Shown piece by piece: positions 54,950 through 63,447 of a stretch of 64,000 nt of DNA (position 1 is the first letter of the stretch; each line of letters begins with the position of its first letter). The DNA comes from Rhizobium brockwellii (lineage in GTDB: Bacteria > Pseudomonadota > Alphaproteobacteria > Rhizobiales > Rhizobiaceae), in assembly GCF_000769405.2 (NCBI RefSeq), contig NZ_CP053441.1, forward strand, positions 186,001 to 250,000, written 5' to 3'. The notes under the pieces were generated by a model that saw only the letters and a program-made list of their open reading frames with translations, had not been told where the DNA came from and did not search any database. Both the position numbers and the translations under genes were made by a program.

Positions 54950-55762
54950 TTATGCGACCGACGAGGAATCCTCCTTGATTGCCTGGGCGACCGGGCTCGC
55001 AACGATGAGCCTGATGCCGGCATTCTCGATCATCCTGACGGCTTCCTCTGGAATGCCGTCATCGGTGATGATTGTAGACACACGCTCGAGCGGGCACAGA
55101 ATGAGGCTCGACCGGCGATGGAACTTGCTGGAATCGGCCATGACGACCAGTTCGTCGGCCTGATGCATCAGCTTCTGTTCGCTTTGAATAATCAGCGCGT
55201 CGGCTTCCATGATGCCGAGCGGGCCGATGCCCTGTGCGCCGATGAAGAATCGGCGGGCGTAGAAATTGCGAATCGCGTCATTGTCGAAGGGAGAGAGGAT
55301 CAGGCTCTGCTCGCGATAGATCGCCCCACCCGGCACCGTCACCGTATTCTTCGAATGCTTGACCAGATGTTCGGCGATCGCGAAAGAATTGGTCATCACC
55401 TGCAGGCGGTGCGCCGCCATGAAATGCACCATCTGGAAGGTGGTCGTGCCGCCATTGATGATGATCGCATCGCCCGGATCGCAAAGCTCGACCGCCTGGC
55501 GTGCGATTGCGCGCTTCTTATCGATATTGACCGATTCCGAAACGCGGAAGGGGCGCCCGGCGAGATTGCCGAGCTGCGGCGGATGCACCGCCTCGGCGCC
55601 GCCGCGCACACGCCGGATCTTGCCCTGAACATGAAGAGCCGCGATGTCGCGCCGGATCGTCGCCTCGGAAGCCTCGGTCAGTTCGGAAATATCCTGAACC
55701 GTCACGACGGACTTTTCCTGAACAGCGCTCAGAATGATGCGATGGCGTTCGCGTTCGTGCAT
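54950..55762 (-). CDS. rhaR: DeoR-family repressor of the rhamnose locus
   Basis: ATG 55762 gives 270 residues. The DeoR N-terminal helix-turn-helix is MHERERHRIILSAVQEKSVV followed by SEATIRRDIAALHVQGKIRR and VRGGA. The C-terminal sugar-binding domain has PGDAIIINGGTTTFQMVHFM (effector loop) and HQADELVVMADSSKFHRR. It should repress rhaSTPQUK and rhaDI until a rhamnose-derived phosphate is present. It is first gene of the leftward operon and divergent from rhaD. Confidence 0.92.
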   Translation of the reverse strand: MHERERHRIILSAVQEKSVVTVQDISELTEASEATIRRDIAALHVQGKIRRVRGGAEAVHPPQLGNLAGRPFRVSESVNIDKKRAIARQAVELCDPGDAIIINGGTTTFQMVHFMAAHRLQVMTNSFAIAEHLVKHSKNTVTVPGGAIYREQSLILSPFDNDAIRNFYARRFFIGAQGIGPLGIMEADALIIQSEQKLMHQADELVVMADSSKFHRRSSLILCPLERVSTIITDDGIPEEAVRMIENAGIRLIVASPVAQAIKEDSSSVA

Positions 55763-55804
55763 GGGGCTCCTCCTTCGATCGTTTATTTCGCACATATGAC
55801 AATG

Positions 55805-55877
55805 TGTCAATCAAAAACGATCATAAATATTCATATTGCGCTGCACAATAATCGAATTTGATCGTTTTCGATTGACA
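55805..55877. promoter_or_regulatory. Divergent rhaR/rhaD promoters with paired RhaR operator boxes
   Basis: Two 19-bp boxes TGATCGTTTTYGATTGACA are present in opposite orientation: 55859-55877 on plus and 55805-55823 on minus, with 18 of 19 positions equal. Each ends in TTGACA, which serves as a -35. On plus, the -10 candidate CGATAC follows after 17 bp; on minus, AATAAA follows after 17 bp. The boxes lie 35 bp apart. Confidence 0.75.
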
Positions 55878-55960
55878 AGCTCGGTTTTGATGAGCGATAC
55901 CGTCTGCGAAAAGGGGCGCGAACTTTGCGCTCCGATGATGATTTCATATGGGAGGATGAC

Positions 55961-58057
55961 ATGGCGGCGAACGTCCGGCTTCTGGAAAACCGGTGGGATG
56001 ATGCTTACGCGGCAGGCCTCGATGAGCCTGGCAAGCTGCTCTATCGTTCCAACCTGCTCGGCGCCGACAAGCGCATCACCAATTACGGCGGCGGCAACAC
56101 CTCGGCGAAGGTGCTGGAAACCGATCCGCTGACCGGCGGCAAGGTGAAGATACTCTGGGTCAAGGGCTCGGGCGGCGACGTCGGCACGATCAAGCTCGAC
56201 GGTTTCGCGACGCTCTACCAGGACAAGCTGGAATCGCTGAAGAGCATCTACAAGGGCGTCGAGGACGAGGACCGCATGGTCGGCTTTCTGCCGCACTGCA
56301 CCTTCAACCTGAACGCCCGTGCCGCCTCGATCGACACGCCGCTGCATGGTTTCGTGCCTTTCACCCATGTCGACCACATGCATCCCGACGCGATCATCGC
56401 GATCGCCGCGTCGAAGAATTCGAAGGAATTGACGCAGCAGATTTTCGGCGATGAGATCGGCTGGCTGCCCTGGCGCCGCCCGGGCTTCCAGCTCGGCCTC
56501 GACCTCGGCGCATTCGTGGCCGCAAATCCGAATGCCAAGGGCGTCGTGCTCGAGAGCCACGGCCTCTTCACCTGGGCGAACGATGCCAAGGCCTGCTACG
56601 AGCTGACGCTCGATATCATCAACAAGGCGATCGTCTGGTTCGCCGAAAAGACCGAAGGCAAGACCATTTTCGGCGGCGCGGTCGCACAGAGCTTGGCCGT
56701 TGCCGAACGCCGCGCCATCGCCGCCCGGCTGATGCCGGAGATCCGTGGCCGCATCGGCAAGCAGGAGCGTAAGCTCGGACATTTCGACGATCAGGACGCC
56801 GTGCTCGAATTCGTCAACTCCAGCGATCTGCGTCCGCTCGGCGCGCTCGGCACCAGCTGCCCGGATCATTTCCTGCGCACCAAGATCCGTCCGCTGATCG
56901 TCGATTTCGACCCGGCCAAGCCGGATGTCGACGCGATCGTCGCCGGTCTCGACAAGGCGCTGGAGGATTATCGCGCCGACTACGCCCGCTATTACAACGA
57001 CTGCAAGCATGACAATTCGCCCGCCATGCGCGACGCCAATCCCGTCATTTTCCTGGTGCCCGGCGTCGGCATGCTGTCCTTTGCCCGCGACAAGGCGACG
57101 GCCCGCATCGCCAGCGAATTCTACGTCAACGCCATCAACGTCATGCGCGGCGCCTCGACGGTCTCCGAGTATCAGGGCCTGCCCGAGCAGGAAGCTTTCG
57201 ATATCGAATATTGGCTGCTTGAAGAGGCCAAGCTGCAGCGCATGCCGAAGCCAAAGAGCCTTGCCGGCCGCGTCGCCTTCGTCACCGGCGGCGCCGGCGG
57301 CATCGGCCGGGCGACGGCCGCACGCCTCGTCGGCGAAGGCGCCTGCGTGGTGCTTGCCGATATCGACCAGGCAGCGCTCGAAGGCACCGAAGCCGATTTC
57401 GTCAAGAAGTTCGGCGCTGACGCCGTGCGCAGCGTCCGGCTTGATGTCACCAAGGAGGATGCGGTGATCGCCTCCTTCGCGGAAGCCTGCGTCGAATTCG
57501 GCGGTATCGATATCCTCGTCTCGAATGCCGGCATTGCCTCCTCCGCGCCGATCGAATTGACCGAGCTTGCGACGTGGAACCGCAATATCGATATTCTGGC
57601 GACCGGTTATTTCCTCGTCTCGCGCGAAGCATTCCGCCTGTTTCGCCGTCAGGTGCTCGGCGGCAACGTCATCTTCGTCGCTTCGAAAAACGGTCTTGCC
57701 GCCTCGCCGAATGCATCTGCTTATTGCACGGCAAAGGCTGCCGAAATCCATCTTGCCCGCTGCCTGGCGCTGGAAGGCGCGGATGCCGGCATCCGCGTCA
57801 ACACGGTCAATCCGGACGCGGTCCTGCGCGGTTCGAAGATCTGGAGCGGTGAATGGCGCGAGCAGCGCGCCGCCTCGTCCAAGATCGAGGTGGACGATCT
57901 CGAGGAACATTACCGCAAGCGTTCGATGCTGAAACTCAACGTGTTTCCGGAAGATATCGCCGAGGCGATCTATTTCCTCGCCTCGGACCTTTCGGCGAAA
58001 TCGACCGGCAACATCATCAACGTCGATGCCGGCAACGTGCAGAGTTTTACGCGCTAG
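55961..58057 (+). CDS. rhaD: Bifunctional rhamnulose-phosphate aldolase / lactaldehyde dehydrogenase-type SDR
   Basis: ATG 55961 has GGGAGGATG upstream and gives 698 residues. Residues 1-410 are the class II aldolase/adducin-like domain with VKGSGGDVGTIKLDGFATLY, the metal-site histidines His136, His139 and His141 in FTHVDHMHPDA, and His200 in LESHGLFTW. Residues 430-698 are an SDR domain: TGGAGGIG at 442-449, NAGIASS, Tyr588 and Lys592 in ASAYCTAKAAE. The rhizobial protein cleaves rhamnulose-1-phosphate to DHAP and L-lactaldehyde and oxidises the aldehyde. Fusion of the two steps in one chain is normal in this family. Confidence 0.94.
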   Translation: MAANVRLLENRWDDAYAAGLDEPGKLLYRSNLLGADKRITNYGGGNTSAKVLETDPLTGGKVKILWVKGSGGDVGTIKLDGFATLYQDKLESLKSIYKGVEDEDRMVGFLPHCTFNLNARAASIDTPLHGFVPFTHVDHMHPDAIIAIAASKNSKELTQQIFGDEIGWLPWRRPGFQLGLDLGAFVAANPNAKGVVLESHGLFTWANDAKACYELTLDIINKAIVWFAEKTEGKTIFGGAVAQSLAVAERRAIAARLMPEIRGRIGKQERKLGHFDDQDAVLEFVNSSDLRPLGALGTSCPDHFLRTKIRPLIVDFDPAKPDVDAIVAGLDKALEDYRADYARYYNDCKHDNSPAMRDANPVIFLVPGVGMLSFARDKATARIASEFYVNAINVMRGASTVSEYQGLPEQEAFDIEYWLLEEAKLQRMPKPKSLAGRVAFVTGGAGGIGRATAARLVGEGACVVLADIDQAALEGTEADFVKKFGADAVRSVRLDVTKEDAVIASFAEACVEFGGIDILVSNAGIASSAPIELTELATWNRNIDILATGYFLVSREAFRLFRRQVLGGNVIFVASKNGLAASPNASAYCTAKAAEIHLARCLALEGADAGIRVNTVNPDAVLRGSKIWSGEWREQRAASSKIEVDDLEEHYRKRSMLKLNVFPEDIAEAIYFLASDLSAKSTGNIINVDAGNVQSFTR

Positions 58058-58058
58058 G

Positions 58059-58113
58059 GCAATTCCAGCAGCAGTGCGCAGCGGTTTTGCGTCCGGAGCG
58101 CGTAAAGCAAACG
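58059..58113 (+). repeat. Rhizobial intergenic repeat (third copy)
   Basis: GCAATTCCAGCAGCAGTGCG then CAGCGGTTTTGCGTCCGGAG, right after the rhaD stop. Same family as 1214-1283 and 18161-18220. It lies between rhaD and the antisense small membrane protein gene. Confidence 0.72.
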
Positions 58114-58120
58114 GATAGAG

Positions 58121-58279
58121 CTATTTCCGGAGGATCACCCATATTGCGTGGATGATTCCCGGCAGATAGCCGCAGAGTGTCAGCAATATATTGAGCCAGA
58201 AGTGCAGGCCGATCCCGACCTGCAAGAATACGCCAAGGGGCGGCAGGATGATCGCAAGAAGAATGCGGACAACGTCCAT
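58121..58279 (-). CDS. YqaE/Pmp3-family membrane peptide
   Basis: ATG 58279 with AAGGAGCTACG upstream gives 52 residues, MDVVRILLAIILPPLGVFLQ and then VGIGLHFWLNILLTLCGYLP. The LAIILPPLGVFLQ-GLHFWLNILLTL-GYLPGIIHAIWVI pattern is the Pmp3/YqaE/Ric1 signature of two-helix membrane proteins made under salt or membrane-potential stress. It is encoded antisense within the rhaD-rhaI interval, so it splits what is otherwise one rha transcript. An extra upstream ATG (58303) is less likely. Confidence 0.9.
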   Translation of the reverse strand: MDVVRILLAIILPPLGVFLQVGIGLHFWLNILLTLCGYLPGIIHAIWVILRK

Positions 58280-58357
58280 CGTAGCTCCTTCGTTTGAAGA
58301 CATGTAAGCGTTTGAACGCGAACCATGCCCCTATGGTTCGCGACCAGGGAGGAATAG

Positions 58358-59650
58358 ATGACAGATTCCAGGATTGCGCCAGATCTGGTCGCGACTGACA
58401 ACGACAAGCGGGCAACCGCTCTGAAAGCCGATTACGAGGCGCTGGGCGCGACGCTTGCCCGTCGCGGCGTCGATATCGAGGCGGTCACCCGGAAGGTTGC
58501 GGAATTCTTCGTTGCCGTTCCCTCCTGGGGCGTCGGCACCGGCGGCACGCGTTTTGCCCGCTTCCCCGGTACCGGCGAGCCGCGCGGCATCTTCGACAAA
58601 CTCGACGATTGCGCCGTCATCAACCAGCTGACGCAGGCAACCCCGAACGTCTCGCTGCATATTCCCTGGGACAAGGCGGATGCTAGCGAATTGAAGGCCA
58701 AGGGTAACGCGCTCGGCCTTGGCTTCGATGCGATGAATTCGAACACCTTTTCCGATGCGCCGGGCCAAGCCCATTCCTATAAATACGGCTCGCTCAGCCA
58801 CACCGATGCGGCGACGCGGGCGCAGGCGGTCGAGCACAATCTCGAATGCATCGAGATCGGCAAGGCGCTCGGCTCCAAGGCGCTGACAGTCTGGATCGGC
58901 GACGGCTCGAATTTCCCCGGCCAGAGCCATTTCACCAAGGCTTTCGAGCGTTACCTTGCCTCGATGGCGGATATCTACAAGGCGCTGCCCGACGATTGGA
59001 AGCTGTTCTCCGAGCACAAGATGTACGAGCCGGCCTTCTATTCGACCATCGTGCAGGATTGGGGCACCAACTACCTGATCGCCCAGACGCTCGGCCCCAA
59101 GGCCTATTGCCTCGTCGATCTCGGCCACCACGCGCCGAATACCAATATCGAGATGATCGTCGCCCGGCTGATCCAGTTCGGCAAGCTCGGCGGTTTCCAC
59201 TTCAACGATTCGAAATATGGCGATGACGATCTCGACGCCGGCGCGATCGATCCCTACCGGCTGTTCCTCGTTTTCAACGAATTGGTCGACGCCGAGCAGC
59301 GCGGCGTCAACGACTTCAACCCGGCCCATATGATCGACCAGTCGCACAATGTCACCGACCCGATCGAAAGCCTGATCAACAGCGCCAACGAAATCCGCCG
59401 TGCCTATGCGCAGGCACTGCTCGTCGACCGCAAGGCGCTCTCCGGCTACCAGGACGATAACGACGCGCTGATGGCGTCGGAAACGCTGAAGCGCGCCTAT
59501 CGCGCCGATGTCGAACCGATTCTGGCGGAAGCCCGCCGCAGGGCCGGCGGCGCGATCGACCCGATCGCCGTCTACCGCGCCAGCGGTTATCGCAGACAAG
59601 TGGCGGCCGAGCGCCCGGCATCCGCTGCCGGCGGCGGCGGCATCATCTGA
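58358..59650 (+). CDS. rhaI: L-Rhamnose isomerase
   Basis: 430 residues of the rhizobial/Pseudomonas-type rhamnose isomerase family (xylose-isomerase-like TIM barrel). Metal and substrate residues are in KLFSEHKMYEPAFYSTIVQD, VDLGHHAPNTNIEMIVARLI and GGFHFNDSKYGDDDLDAGAI. It converts L-rhamnose to L-rhamnulose before phosphorylation. GGGAGGAATAG is the ribosome binding site. It starts 300 bp after rhaD; because the Pmp3-like gene lies between, it may have its own promoter. Confidence 0.92.
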   Translation: MTDSRIAPDLVATDNDKRATALKADYEALGATLARRGVDIEAVTRKVAEFFVAVPSWGVGTGGTRFARFPGTGEPRGIFDKLDDCAVINQLTQATPNVSLHIPWDKADASELKAKGNALGLGFDAMNSNTFSDAPGQAHSYKYGSLSHTDAATRAQAVEHNLECIEIGKALGSKALTVWIGDGSNFPGQSHFTKAFERYLASMADIYKALPDDWKLFSEHKMYEPAFYSTIVQDWGTNYLIAQTLGPKAYCLVDLGHHAPNTNIEMIVARLIQFGKLGGFHFNDSKYGDDDLDAGAIDPYRLFLVFNELVDAEQRGVNDFNPAHMIDQSHNVTDPIESLINSANEIRRAYAQALLVDRKALSGYQDDNDALMASETLKRAYRADVEPILAEARRRAGGAIDPIAVYRASGYRRQVAAERPASAAGGGGII

Positions 59651-59744: not shown

Positions 59745-60203
59745 TCACGGCTTCCATTGCCCCGCGACCTGTCGGGTGGCGACGTTCAGCCGGTTCCAGA
59801 CATTGATGTTGGCGATGGCGATGACGAGTGCCGCAAGGCTCTTGCCGTCATAATGCCGGGTCGCCTCATCCCAGATATCATCCGGCACCGGATCCGCCCG
59901 ATCGCTAAGGCGGGTGATCGCCTCGGTGAGCCCAAGCGCGGCGCGTTCAGCATCGCTATAATAGGGGGCGTCGCGCCAGCCAGCGACGGCAAAGAGCCGC
60001 TCATCGGTCTCGCCGTGTTTGCGGGCAATGCGCCAATGACCATCGATGCAGACGCTGCAGCCGTTGATCTGGCTGGCGCGCAGATTGACAAGTTCGAGCA
60101 GCTTTGGCGAAAGGCCGGTTTCGGTCGGCACCTTGCTGAGTGCATTAAGCGCCTGCATGGCCGCGGGAAGGACGAGGGCAGGATTTCCCATTCTCTCCTG
60201 CAT
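59745..60203 (-). CDS. Carboxymuconolactone decarboxylase-like (AhpD-like) protein
   Basis: 152 residues. LLELVNLRASQINGCSVCID is the CMD/AhpD core with the redox pair CSVC, followed by HWRIARKHGETDERLFAVAG. The CxxC...H layout indicates a peroxidase-like disulfide activity. It is divergent from the ECF41-type sigma gene, and the intergenic DNA has an exact ECF41-type promoter directed at this gene. In the ECF41 group, the sigma factor gene is typically next to a carboxymuconolactone decarboxylase, oxidoreductase or epimerase gene; this is the CMD case. Confidence 0.9.
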   Translation of the reverse strand: MQERMGNPALVLPAAMQALNALSKVPTETGLSPKLLELVNLRASQINGCSVCIDGHWRIARKHGETDERLFAVAGWRDAPYYSDAERAALGLTEAITRLSDRADPVPDDIWDEATRHYDGKSLAALVIAIANINVWNRLNVATRQVAGQWKP

Positions 60204-60247
60204 GATATGTCTCCTTATACGTTTCGTGTTCGACGATCCGCCGGCGC

Positions 60248-60274
60248 TGTCACATCGGCCGGGTTTTATTCGTC
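60248..60274 (+). promoter_or_regulatory. ECF41-type promoter for the sigma factor gene
   Basis: TGTCACA at 60248-60254, 16 bp, CGTC at 60271-60274. This is the reported ECF41 target motif. Transcription toward the sigma gene at 60311 would leave a leader of about 30 nt, implying autoregulation. Confidence 0.85.
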
Positions 60275-60282
60275 ATGGCTTT

Positions 60283-60309
60283 GACGGAACGCAGCGGAGG
60301 AATGTGACA
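60283..60309 (-). promoter_or_regulatory. ECF41-type promoter for the CMD-like gene
   Basis: On the minus strand TGTCACA at 60309-60303, 16 bp, CGTC at 60286-60283. It is the same motif with the same spacing as the plus-strand promoter. Its -35 lies between the ribosome binding site and ATG of the sigma gene. Confidence 0.85.
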
Positions 60310-60310
60310 A

Positions 60311-61180
60311 ATGGACGAGAAAAAGTGGCTGACTGAAGAATTCGAGGCGAACAGAGCGCATCTCAGGGCCGCAGCCTTTCGCATGCTCGGCTCGCGCAGC
60401 GAGGCGGAGGATGCCGTTCAGGAGGCCTGGCTGCGGCTTAGCCGCACCAATACGACAGGGGTCGGCAATCTCGGCGGCTGGCTGACGACGGTGGTGGCAC
60501 GCATCTGCCTCGACATGCTGCGCGCCCGCAAGACCCGGCGCGAGGAGCCGCTGGAGGTGCCCGACCATGGCGGGATCGCCGATCCGGCGAACGATCCCGA
60601 GCGCGAAGCCGCCTTCGCCGATTCGGTCGGTCTGGCGCTGCTCGTCGTGCTGCAGACGCTGGCGCCCGCCGAACGTGTCGCCTTCGTGCTTCACGACATG
60701 TTCGATCTGCCCTTCGACGAGATCGCGCCGATCATCGGCCGTTCGTCCGCCGCCACCCGCCAGCTTGCAAGCCGCGCCCGCCGTCGGGTACAGGGGGTGG
60801 ACGAAGCGCCTGATGTCGATTTCGGCAGCAAGCGGACGATCGCCGAGGCCTTTCTGACGGCGTCGCGCAATGGCGATCTGGAGGGATTGATCGCGGTGCT
60901 TGCCCCTGACGTCGTCTTCCGGCCGGATGCGACGGCGGCCCGCTTCGGCACCATAGGCGAAATGCGCGGCGCGGCTCACGTGGCCGAAGCCTTCAAGGGT
61001 CGGGCGCAGGCAGCCGAAATCGCCATCGTCGGCGGTGAGCTCGGATTCGTCGTGGAGATTAAGGGCCAGCTCCGCGTCGTCGTGGCGCTGACGATCAGCG
61101 ATGGCAGGATCGCCGCGATCGACGCCATCGCTGATCCGGAGCACCTGGAAAGGCTCGACTATTCGATCCTTGAGGATTGA
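60311..61180 (+). CDS. ECF41-type RNA polymerase sigma factor with SnoaL-like C-terminal domain
   Basis: 289 residues. Region 2 is RMLGSRSEAEDAVQEAWLRL (about 25-60), region 4 is TLAPAERVAFVLHDMFDLPF and EIAPIIGRSSAATRQLASRA (about 115-160). A C-terminal SnoaL-like domain (about 175-289) follows, which in ECF41 sigma factors controls activity in place of an anti-sigma factor. The conserved DGGGK motif near the start of this domain appears as FRPDATAARFG, so the key glycines and lysine are missing; the NPDKL-like end is ADPEHLERL. No anti-sigma gene is near. GGAGG lies 10 bp before the ATG. Confidence 0.88.
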   Translation: MDEKKWLTEEFEANRAHLRAAAFRMLGSRSEAEDAVQEAWLRLSRTNTTGVGNLGGWLTTVVARICLDMLRARKTRREEPLEVPDHGGIADPANDPEREAAFADSVGLALLVVLQTLAPAERVAFVLHDMFDLPFDEIAPIIGRSSAATRQLASRARRRVQGVDEAPDVDFGSKRTIAEAFLTASRNGDLEGLIAVLAPDVVFRPDATAARFGTIGEMRGAAHVAEAFKGRAQAAEIAIVGGELGFVVEIKGQLRVVVALTISDGRIAAIDAIADPEHLERLDYSILED

Positions 61181-61376
61181 AAATAAATGCGAATTTATCG
61201 GCTCTTCGAAGAAGCGCGCCGCTGCCATTTCCTGAGCGGTGTCGGCCGCGTCATTTGTCTTGACAGCGACATCCTCGGCTTTATTCTATTATAAAGATTT
61301 ATATAGCATAATTATGGAACTAAGACGAATGACCGAGGAGCGCTCGCGGTCCAAGACTTCGAAAGGAATGCATGTC

Positions 61377-62585
61377 ATGCCCGGCGACCAGGCGAAGAAG
61401 CCGCTTCTCCTCACCAATGTCAAACCGATGGCTTTCGGTTCTGGCCCATCCGAGGGGGCAACCGACATTCTCGTCAATGCCGACGGCAGGATCGCCGAGA
61501 TCGGTTCGTCGCTTTCCGTCTCGCAGGATGTGACGCGCATCGACGGCAAGGGCGCCTTCATTTCGCCGGGCTGGGTCGACCTGCACGTGCATATCTGGCA
61601 CGGCGGTACCGATATTTCCATCCGCCCGTCCGAATGCGGTGTCGAGCGCGGCGTCACTACGCTGGTCGATGCCGGTTCGGCCGGTGAGGCGAATTTCCAT
61701 GGCTTCCGGGAATATATCATCGAGCCGTCGCGCGAACGCATCAAGGCCTTCCTCAATCTCGGCTCGATCGGCCTCGTCGCCTGCAACCGCGTCGCGGAAT
61801 TGCGGGATATCCGCGATATAGATCTCGACCGGATTCTCGAAGTCTATGCCGAAAACAGCGAGCACATCGTCGGCATCAAGGTGCGCGCCAGCCATGTCAT
61901 CACCGGATCCTGGGGCGTCACGCCAGTCAAGCTCGGCAAGAAGATCGCCAAGATTTTGAAAGTGCCGATGATGGTGCATGTCGGCGAGCCGCCGGCGCTC
62001 TATGACGAAGTGCTGGAGATCCTCGGACCCGGCGACGTCGTCACCCACTGCTTCAACGGCAAGGCCGGGTCGAGCATCATGGAGGACGAGGACCTCTTCA
62101 ATCTCGCCGAGCGCTGCGCTTCGGAGGGCATCCGTCTCGACATCGGCCATGGCGGCGCCTCCTTCTCCTTCAAGGTCGCGGAAGCGGCGATCGCGCGCGG
62201 GCTTCTGCCGTTCTCGATCTCGACCGACCTGCACGGCCATTCGATGAACTTCCCCGTCTGGGACCTGGCGACGACGATGTCGAAGCTGCTCAGCGTCGGC
62301 ATGCCTTTCGACAAGGTTGTGGAAGCCGTCACCCATGCGCCGGCATCCGTCATCAAGCTGTCGATGGAGAACCGGCTAGCGGTCGGCTCGCAAGCGGAAT
62401 TCACCATTTTCGATCTGGTCGATTCCGACCTCGAGGCGACGGATTCCAACGGCGACGTTTCGGTCCTCAAGAAGCTGTTCGAGCCGCGCTATGCGGTGAT
62501 GGGCGCCGATGCCTTCACCGCCAGCCGCTATGTGCCGCGGGCGCGCAAGCTGGTGCGCCACAGCCACGGCTATTCCTACAGGTAG
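61377..62585 (+). CDS. Amidohydrolase/deacetylase-family metallohydrolase
   Basis: ATG 61377 with AAGGA 9 bp upstream gives 402 residues (61368 and 61329 are alternatives). Metal site: His70 and His72 in GWVDLHVHIWHGG, Lys168 in HIVGIKVRASH (carbamylated in the family), His201 in MVHVGEPP, His224 in VVTHCFNGKAGSS and Asp283 in STDLHGHSMN. The type is close to the dihydroorotase-like amidohydrolases of the AHA_3915/EF_0837 group, which act on N-acyl amino-acid or sugar-acid derivatives. The exact substrate is unknown. It is convergent with an IclR gene, which may control it. Confidence 0.85.
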   Translation: MPGDQAKKPLLLTNVKPMAFGSGPSEGATDILVNADGRIAEIGSSLSVSQDVTRIDGKGAFISPGWVDLHVHIWHGGTDISIRPSECGVERGVTTLVDAGSAGEANFHGFREYIIEPSRERIKAFLNLGSIGLVACNRVAELRDIRDIDLDRILEVYAENSEHIVGIKVRASHVITGSWGVTPVKLGKKIAKILKVPMMVHVGEPPALYDEVLEILGPGDVVTHCFNGKAGSSIMEDEDLFNLAERCASEGIRLDIGHGGASFSFKVAEAAIARGLLPFSISTDLHGHSMNFPVWDLATTMSKLLSVGMPFDKVVEAVTHAPASVIKLSMENRLAVGSQAEFTIFDLVDSDLEATDSNGDVSVLKKLFEPRYAVMGADAFTASRYVPRARKLVRHSHGYSYR

Positions 62586-62607
62586 GATCCGCGGAAGGGC
62601 GCAATGC

Positions 62608-63447
62608 TCAGCGGTTGCGCCAGCCCATCAGCTTTTCGATCCGTTCCGCTGAACTGCGCACATGCGCCGTATAGTGGTTCTCGTCGGAAAACGCCTTCTG
62701 TTCCGGCAGCACGATGGAAATGGTGGCGACGCACTGGCCGTCGCGATCGCAGATCGGCGAGGCGATGCAGGCAACCGCATAATCCGATTCCCCTGCCTGG
62801 ATCGACAGCCGCGATTCGAAGGCATTGCCGGCGGCTTCCGACAGCGTGCCCGGATCGATCTCGGCGCGGCCGGTCGGCGATGAGCGGGCACAGCGCTTGA
62901 ACAGTTCGATGCGCTCCTCCTCGGCCAGGTGGCCGACGAGCAGGCGGCCGGAGGCCGTCCAGTTCAGCGGCACCCTTGTGCCGACGCGGGACGCCACCTG
63001 AAAATGGCTCGGGCCGTCGGCCATGGCCAGCACCAGCATATAGTCGCCGTCACGGCCGCAGACCTGCACGGTTTCGCCGGCTTGGCGGCAGAGATCGTGC
63101 ATTTCGTGGGTAGCGATGCTCATGAAATCCAGCGACCTGGCATAGGCGAGGCCGTAATGGTAGAGCCGCGCGCCGAGCCAGATCGAGCCGTCGGCCTGGC
63201 GCGTCAGCATGTTCTTCTCGACGAGATCGTCGACGATAACGTAAACGGTCGACAGCGGCGCCTTCACCGCCTTGGCGATAGCATAGACGCCGGCGGGCGA
63301 TCCGGTCTCGTAAAGATGATCGATCACCTGAAGCGCCCGGTCGATGCCGCTGACGCGCGCGCGACGCGCGCTCTTGCCACCGGTCTCGCCGGCAACGCCC
63401 TCATCTTCGGAATAAACTGCGGATGATGTCTTTCCGTCCAATTCCAC
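62608..63447 (-). CDS. IclR-family transcriptional regulator
   Basis: 279 residues. Winged helix from about 33 to 95: VSGIDRALQVIDHLYETGSP followed by VYAIAKAVKAPLSTVYVIVD. Effector-binding domain from about 110 to 275: MVLAMADGPSHFQVASRVGT, LNWTASGRLLVGHLAEEERI and VACIASPICDRDGQCVATIS, the usual IclR C-terminal signature. The N-terminal tail (about 25 residues, MELDGKTSSAVYSEDEGVAG) is polar and disordered. It lies convergent to the amidohydrolase gene; it may be the regulator, but no operator was found. Confidence 0.88.
   Translation of the reverse strand: MELDGKTSSAVYSEDEGVAGETGGKSARRARVSGIDRALQVIDHLYETGSPAGVYAIAKAVKAPLSTVYVIVDDLVEKNMLTRQADGSIWLGARLYHYGLAYARSLDFMSIATHEMHDLCRQAGETVQVCGRDGDYMLVLAMADGPSHFQVASRVGTRVPLNWTASGRLLVGHLAEEERIELFKRCARSSPTGRAEIDPGTLSEAAGNAFESRLSIQAGESDYAVACIASPICDRDGQCVATISIVLPEQKAFSDENHYTAHVRSSAERIEKLMGWRNR

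Follow-up and report, generated by a model that had tools for sequence, protein, structure and literature searches.

A promoter motif with TGTCACA as -35 and CGTC as -10 element has been reported for loci of ECF41 sigma factors, on which its activity depends, and divergent loci often carry the motif in front of both the sigma gene and the neighbouring COE gene (Wecke et al. 2012; PMC3426412). Table 4 of that study covers 55 divergent loci of the arrangement <ECF< >COE>, with the promoter found before the ECF gene in 36 and before the COE gene in 41. Promoters of the TGTCACA/CGTC type respond to ECF41 sigmas, and in two species other than S. meliloti the transcript starts at a G (PMC3426412). 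In S. meliloti, the motif is reported to lie 9 nt upstream of the start of the RpoE9 operon (PMC6180224, PMC3616915).

Promoters firing in both directions have been described for sigma70. These bidirectional promoters are defined by opposite-strand starts 7–25 bp apart, with reciprocal overlap of -10 element and start, and their two-way activity is traced to the symmetry of the housekeeping -10 element; a start spacing of 18 bp is the commonest, and 10 and 23 bp are also common (Warman and Grainger; PMC12825309, PMC10268837). Polymerase is bound in one orientation at a time, and the two directions compete only when transcription is substantially activated (PMC12825309, PMC10268837).

The locus described here was found in the window, the whole 64-kb stretch of Rhizobium brockwellii DNA that was analysed. 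It consists of a gene for an ECF41-like sigma factor (60311..61180, plus strand, 289 aa) with the domains sigma2 and sigma4 and a C-terminal SnoaL_2-like extension, and of its divergent partner and predicted target, a gene for a CMD/AhpD-type protein (59745..60203, minus strand, 152 aa) with a CxxC motif (CSVC, from the translation). The space between the two genes comprises 107 bp (60204–60310), as given in the initial annotation. Next to the pair, at positions 54950–59650, lies what looks from its sequence like an L-rhamnose catabolic cluster, with putative genes for a DeoR-type regulator, an aldolase/short-chain dehydrogenase fusion and a sugar isomerase; the sigma gene is presumably followed by genes for an amidohydrolase-like protein and an IclR-type regulator (61239–63447).

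The intergenic space contains a mirror-image element of 62 bp, TGTCACA-N16-CGTC-N8-GACG-N16-TGTGACA (60248..60309, both strands), identified by motif match and by the same geometry elsewhere. The sigma-directed promoter consists of the -35 element TGTCACA at 60248..60254 and the -10 element CGTC at 60271..60274 on the plus strand, and the CMD-directed promoter of the same elements at 60303..60309 and 60283..60286 on the minus strand; all four assignments rest on the motif and on the loci of the genus Rhizobium described below. A pattern search of the window recovered both full motifs with their 16-bp spacers, TGTCACATCGGCCGGGTTTTATTCGTC at 60248–60274 (plus strand) and TGTCACATTCCTCCGCTGCGTTCCGTC at 60309–60283 (minus strand), in agreement with the initial annotation. 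No further match to TGTCACA-N14-18-CGTC occurs in the 64 kb (2 found, 0.09 expected), and none of 100 shuffled sequences reached two. The arrangement had been described as back-to-back and is in fact face-to-face: the -35 elements are outermost and the two CGTC elements point inward with 8 bp between them, so that the two promoters overlap completely. The minus-strand -35 element lies, as had been noted, between the likely Shine-Dalgarno sequence of the sigma gene (GGAGG, 60296..60300, plus strand, within the spacer of the CMD-directed promoter) and the ATG at 60311. In the middle of the element, a symmetric core CGTCA-N6-TGACG (60271..60286) holds both -10 elements and both predicted starts and represents the DNA that either polymerase would melt; its pseudo-symmetry is evident from the comparison of CGTCATGGCTTTGACG with its complement CGTCAAAGCCATGACG.

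A genome-wide search for TGTCACA-N15-17-CGTC had been proposed as a way to define the regulon. It yielded seven matches in the 7.1-Mb genome against five for a reversed control, so that only the pair in the window stands out, the remaining five sites are at control level and a wider regulon was rejected. Four of these five sites overlap open frames of at least 90 aa (L004 only at the edge) and one (L003) overlaps none. Two of the matches on the own chromosome (L002, 1501–1528, and L003, 1501–1528) are 28-base stretches that differ at two bases only, which suggests repeated sequence rather than promoters.

The sigma factor was initially assigned to the ECF41 type. Its domain content is sigma2 (PF04542, 46.9 bits, cutoff 24) and sigma4 (PF08281, 40.2 bits, cutoff 25.7) only, as in ECF sigmas, followed by a SnoaL-type C-terminal extension of about 100 aa (SnoaL_2, 25.3 bits, slightly below the cutoff of 27). 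The protein aligns to SigJ of M. tuberculosis (5xe7) across residues 9–278, and its scores for NCBIfam models are below the thresholds (PRK09636 SigJ, 243.3 of 271; SigX4, 205.6 of 323.25; SigI, 205.8 of 317). The partner has the COE identity expected for an ECF41 neighbour (CMD, PF02627, 75.2 bits, cutoff 23; AhpD core, TIGR00778, 60.5 bits, cutoff 27.8), and the ECF41 target motif TGTCACA-N16(±1)-CGTC is present at the locus. The WLPEP linker is given as characteristic of ECF41 (PMC3426412), and a literature passage describes NPDKL as a conserved C-terminal motif of these sigmas. In the window sigma, WLPEP is absent between sigma2 and sigma4, according to a motif check and the SigJ alignment, and ADPEHL stands at the place of NPDKL. 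DGGG, a further conserved C-terminal motif of ECF41 sigmas, is missing as well. Hence, the initial assignment holds for the domains, the extension, the COE neighbour and the target motif and fails for the linker and the C-terminal motifs, and the protein is called ECF41-like rather than ECF41. It may belong to another of the SnoaL groups named in reviews (ECF294, ECF295, ECF205 or ECF56).

This deviation is shared by the relatives of the window sigma. Among 110 sigmas labelled as having facing promoters (the window counted, a doubtful frame, L083, included, and some loci from the same genome represented twice), WLPEP is missing in 109, and WLPEP together with the C-terminal motifs in 108. In contrast, 18 of the 19 sigmas labelled operon-type from the alphaproteobacterial order of the window's genome have WLPEP, and 18 retain all three motifs. 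In a tree of 87 sigmas, which also includes L083, 15 of 16 operon-type sequences grouped apart on one well-supported side.

To sample loci by protein rather than by motif, relatives of the sigma were collected in the genus Rhizobium (122 of 148 genomes at E ≤ 1e-40), and 90 of the 127 matches were read. These loci share ancestry; in all 90, the promoter towards the sigma gene is present and deviates from the consensus at no more than one base, and all 76 with a divergent CMD gene have the facing promoter with a gap of 8 bp and 16 bp in both spacers. The laboratory Rhizobium strain 3841 has this element as well, on pRL11 (L053). The CMD-directed half carries one consensus mismatch in 41 of the 76 and the sigma-directed half in 1 of the 76, and thus the two directions may differ in strength; in ten loci inspected, the CMD-directed half deviates at the first T of its -35 element. 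The other 14 loci, without CMD in the 1.1 kb upstream, all retain the sigma-directed promoter and lack the facing one: its -35 is lost, the TGA is shifted by one base in 12 of the 14, and minus-strand matches are weak (9 of 11 bases in four loci, 10 of 11 in L167) and at other spacings. The proposal that the sigma drives both its own gene and that of CMD thus gains strong comparative support, while the arrangement, the sigma class and the start distance that came with it are corrected here. The CMD-less loci (L167–L180) form one clade of the genus, which probably reflects a single loss event. In three of them (L167, L172 and L178), the upstream divergent gene looks HAD-type, phosphatase-like, as judged by eye from the sequence.

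In the alphaproteobacterial order of the window's genome, the sigma was matched in 24 of 219 genomes. The five loci beyond the genus that are closest to the window sigma (L218–L222) have the facing pair with a gap of 8 bp, with the first base of one or both -35 elements changed. A more distant sample came from the actinobacterial order of Kribbella (G151): of its 120 sigma matches, 90 were read, and a promoter was scored when at least 10 of the 11 consensus bases agreed. There, 65 of the 90 loci lack a facing pair at this threshold; 33 have only the sigma-directed promoter, two only the opposite one, one a back-to-back pair and 29 none. The remaining 25 have facing pairs, 21 with gap 8 and four with gap 9 (counting L245, which is filed under another pairing, -48; L252 has a second pairing with a gap of 22). 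In two of the pairs with gap 8, one spacer is 15 bp long instead of 16, and these few cases suggest that the distance between the -10 elements is held and not that between the -35 elements. In an even draw of 296 genomes from the actinobacterial phylum, three genomes had back-to-back pairs (spacings 24, 16 and 11). One had a facing pair; this was the seed genome, which had been picked for having it. At L310, a related sigma gene is preceded by a back-to-back pair with 58 bp between the -35 elements and one mismatch per half, a natural non-overlapping control.

A scan of a genome collection for facing pairs with 0–30 bp between the -10 elements matched at least 119 stretches. In the 119 matches listed, the gap is 8 in 114, 9 in three, 11 in one and 12 in one; with near-copies removed, it is 8 in 66 of 71. 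The five facing pairs with gaps of 9, 11 or 12 (L040, L137, L054, L080 and L133) represent natural register variants, L137 being a Nitrospirota locus with gap 12. All 119 adjoin a related gene according to tblastn, namely an outward-reading sigma in 114 and CMD in the other five, and 57 are flanked by both on opposite sides. Hosts of gap-8 elements among the matches listed affiliate with Actinomycetota, Pseudomonadota, Acidobacteriota, Chloroflexota, Verrucomicrobiota and candidate division FCPU426, with the reservation that several host labels stem from metagenome bins and may be wrong. Divergent partner frames at 85 loci, some of them probably mis-chosen, were assigned by Pfam to CMD (34), NAD(P)-binding/NmrA-like (17) and PNPOx (4) proteins and a few single families, the rest being unmatched. 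All three of these named groups are within the COE set of Wecke et al. (PMC3426412). The layout appears to be kept over large evolutionary distances and is hence probably of functional value. A layout generic to ECF sigmas was considered and rejected: in a small sample of 57 genomes, a facing GGAAC-type promoter occurred in five, with scattered gaps, and in two for the reversed control.

The position of the element relative to the sigma gene was compared at 86 loci. In 31 of them, the first ATG of the sigma gene starts 1 nt past the element, and in ten it lies 3–9 nt further on; in 19 the last A of the element is also the A of the ATG, in eight the two adjoin, and 18 have no ATG within 12 nt. 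At many loci, therefore, the partner-directed -35 element is part of the sigma leader, beside the start codon.

The transcript starts were initially expected 6–8 nt after CGTC. The RpoE9 start of S. meliloti and a conserved G both point to 9 nt, and +1 was accordingly set on the ninth base after CGTC, which is a G in 27 of 32 single promoters of the Kribbella order and in 13 of 16 of the alphaproteobacterial order. On these grounds, the sigma transcript is predicted to begin with the G at 60283 (plus strand), at the base pair of the last C of the opposite -10 element, and the CMD transcript with the G at 60274 (minus strand), at that of the last C of the sigma-directed -10. Each predicted start would thus coincide with the end base pair of the opposing -10 element, with a predicted start separation of 9 bp and reciprocal overlap of -10 and start. 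An open complex in either direction would occupy the same stretch of melted DNA, so that the two could not coexist.

The single promoters of the Kribbella order offer an explanation for the value of eight. In 32 of the 33 (L330 was left out; many are near-copies), CGTC is followed by A (31/32), six bases, and T (27/32), G (27/32) and A (26/32). CGTCA is the reverse complement of TGACG, which makes such a promoter nearly mirror-symmetric in its core, and a -10 element on the opposite strand fits at a gap of 8. A second -35 element would turn such a near-palindromic single promoter into a two-way promoter. Of these start-region bases, the 16 single promoters from the alphaproteobacterial order retain the G alone (13/16), and none has GACG; they derive from the 19 loci labelled as operons (L223–L241), of which L233 and L240 have no motif at the threshold and L241 a distant one, with the COE gene placed between promoter and sigma gene by distance. 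Fifteen of the 16 have a WLPEP-type sigma, L223 being the one without WLPEP, which suggests that the TGA start region is a feature of the branch of the window sigma. Some single promoters may be relics of two-way promoters: among the 32, TGTGACA is matched at five or more of seven bases at the place of the opposite -35 in five (5/32, against 3.6% in shuffles), and GACG at three or four of four in 25. As a full explanation of the TGA start region, such descent was rejected, because the -35 excess is small and the start region seems conserved beyond it.

We consider it rather likely that the 62 bp act as one bidirectional promoter of the ECF41-like sigma with mutually exclusive orientations. TGACG would serve as the start region of one promoter and, read on the other strand, as the CGTCA -10 of the other, and a TGTCACA -35 at either end would let the holoenzyme bind both ways round. 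One orientation would yield sigma mRNA from 60283 and the other CMD mRNA from 60274. With the same base pairs melted either way, each firing would go to the sigma or to the enzyme, never to both. At low sigma activity, the two directions would be nearly independent; at high activity they would compete, which would cap positive autoregulation and leave the ratio of sigma to enzyme to be set by the two half-promoters. A toy steady-state model with equal halves and arbitrary constants, an illustration and not evidence, showed no effect of exclusion at low activity and an almost twofold cap at high activity. The competition might be negligible in nature, since strong activation is needed before bidirectional promoters of E. 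coli show it, and the published promoter tests concern canonical ECF41 sigmas rather than the branch of the window sigma.

Alternatively, two ordinary sigma-dependent promoters may simply be tightly packed, both being used, with an overlap of no regulatory effect and a gap that reflects only the position of the start base. We regard this as possible, yet rather improbable. The CGTCA/TGA symmetry of the single promoters would account for the gap without any coupling, and the two directions of bidirectional promoters in E. coli do not compete at basal levels of activity (PMC12825309). Against it, other gaps between 0 and 30 bp are nearly absent among the scan matches listed, which is beyond what packing needs. 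Furthermore, fully overlapping facing promoters cannot be occupied from both sides together, as known polymerase footprints bar simultaneous binding at such an overlap.

An unlikely explanation is that one orientation is mainly regulatory, the holoenzyme bound in the CMD direction repressing the sigma gene by negative autogenous control, or the reverse. Such a role is known for RNAP-HrpL, which at the divergent hrpJ promoter represses hrpL (PMC5263251), and would agree with the more frequent mismatches in the CMD-directed half; hrpL itself, however, is sigma54-dependent, and both half-sites of the present element match the consensus of the same sigma. Moreover, the CMD-side promoter is missing where CMD is missing, even though the three such loci that were read have a divergent HAD-type gene, and this pattern agrees with a promoter serving CMD. 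We give very little credit to a third reading, in which a dimeric regulator uses the palindrome as its operator and the promoter likeness is secondary. A long inverted repeat of a size fixed in most cases would suit an operator, but half-elements stand alone upstream of sigma genes in 33 of 90 loci of the Kribbella order and 14 of 90 of the genus Rhizobium, the gap remains 8 in the two loci with one 15-bp spacer, and the half-site is a tested promoter in other species (PMC3426412); the lone half-elements and the constant gap led us to set the operator aside. Chance co-occurrence of two consensus matches is practically negligible, given the excess over expectation in the window, and is refuted by the gap-8 scan matches in several phyla and the Rhizobium loci.

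In its widest form, the bidirectional-promoter reading states that a deep ECF41-like branch spread over several phyla uses the 62-bp palindromic promoter, with its one shared bubble, as a dose divider between sigma and enzyme that caps autoregulation and fixes their ratio, the 8-bp register being its mark; for this broader proposal, we see the prospects as evenly balanced. The presence of the motif before both genes at divergent loci has been known since 2012, and the fixed mirror geometry is the part for which no report was found. A word search of the main text of Wecke et al. (PMC3426412) returned no statement that the two promoters overlap, face each other or stand at a fixed distance of 8 bp, and the literature search gave no title, abstract or passage with a fixed facing geometry; an earlier mention is possible in the supplement of that study, the ECF reclassification, the 2019 work on ECF41/ECF42 or the 2021 paper on bidirectional promoters. 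For its own mRNA and that of its target, an alternative sigma appears to rely here on a two-sided promoter whose geometry is fixed, which offers a compact and testable example of competing orientations within an autoregulatory loop. The element also provides a sequence signature for finding sigma/target pairs in unannotated genomes and a possible part for balanced two-gene output.

Similar to the ECF41/COE loci in the main text of Wecke et al. (PMC3426412), the window locus combines the same motif and spacer with a CMD (COE) partner containing CxxC and a SnoaL-type extension of the sigma, and differs from them by the missing WLPEP linker. The pair RpoE9 (ECF41)/SMb20029 of S. meliloti shares the motif, the start 9 nt after it and CMD as the single target found, but there CMD and sigma are encoded in one operon with one promoter (PMC6180224, PMC3616915), whereas the window pair is divergent. 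In Pseudomonas syringae, an ECF holoenzyme at the divergent hrpJ target promoter feeds back on the sigma gene hrpL by occlusion, a precedent for feedback through a shared region; in that system, hrpL is transcribed from a sigma54-dependent promoter whose activator sites become occluded, and the passages compared describe no mirror-image ECF promoter (PMC5263251). As in the sigma70 bidirectional promoters (PMC12825309, PMC10268837), sequence symmetry would permit two binding orientations with closely spaced starts on opposite strands and with competition at high activity. In contrast to these, the symmetry in the window is between an ECF -10 element (CGTCA) and a start region (TGACG), full -35 elements are present on both sides, the starts are predicted 9 bp apart, and the sigma that presumably reads the promoter is itself one of the two products.
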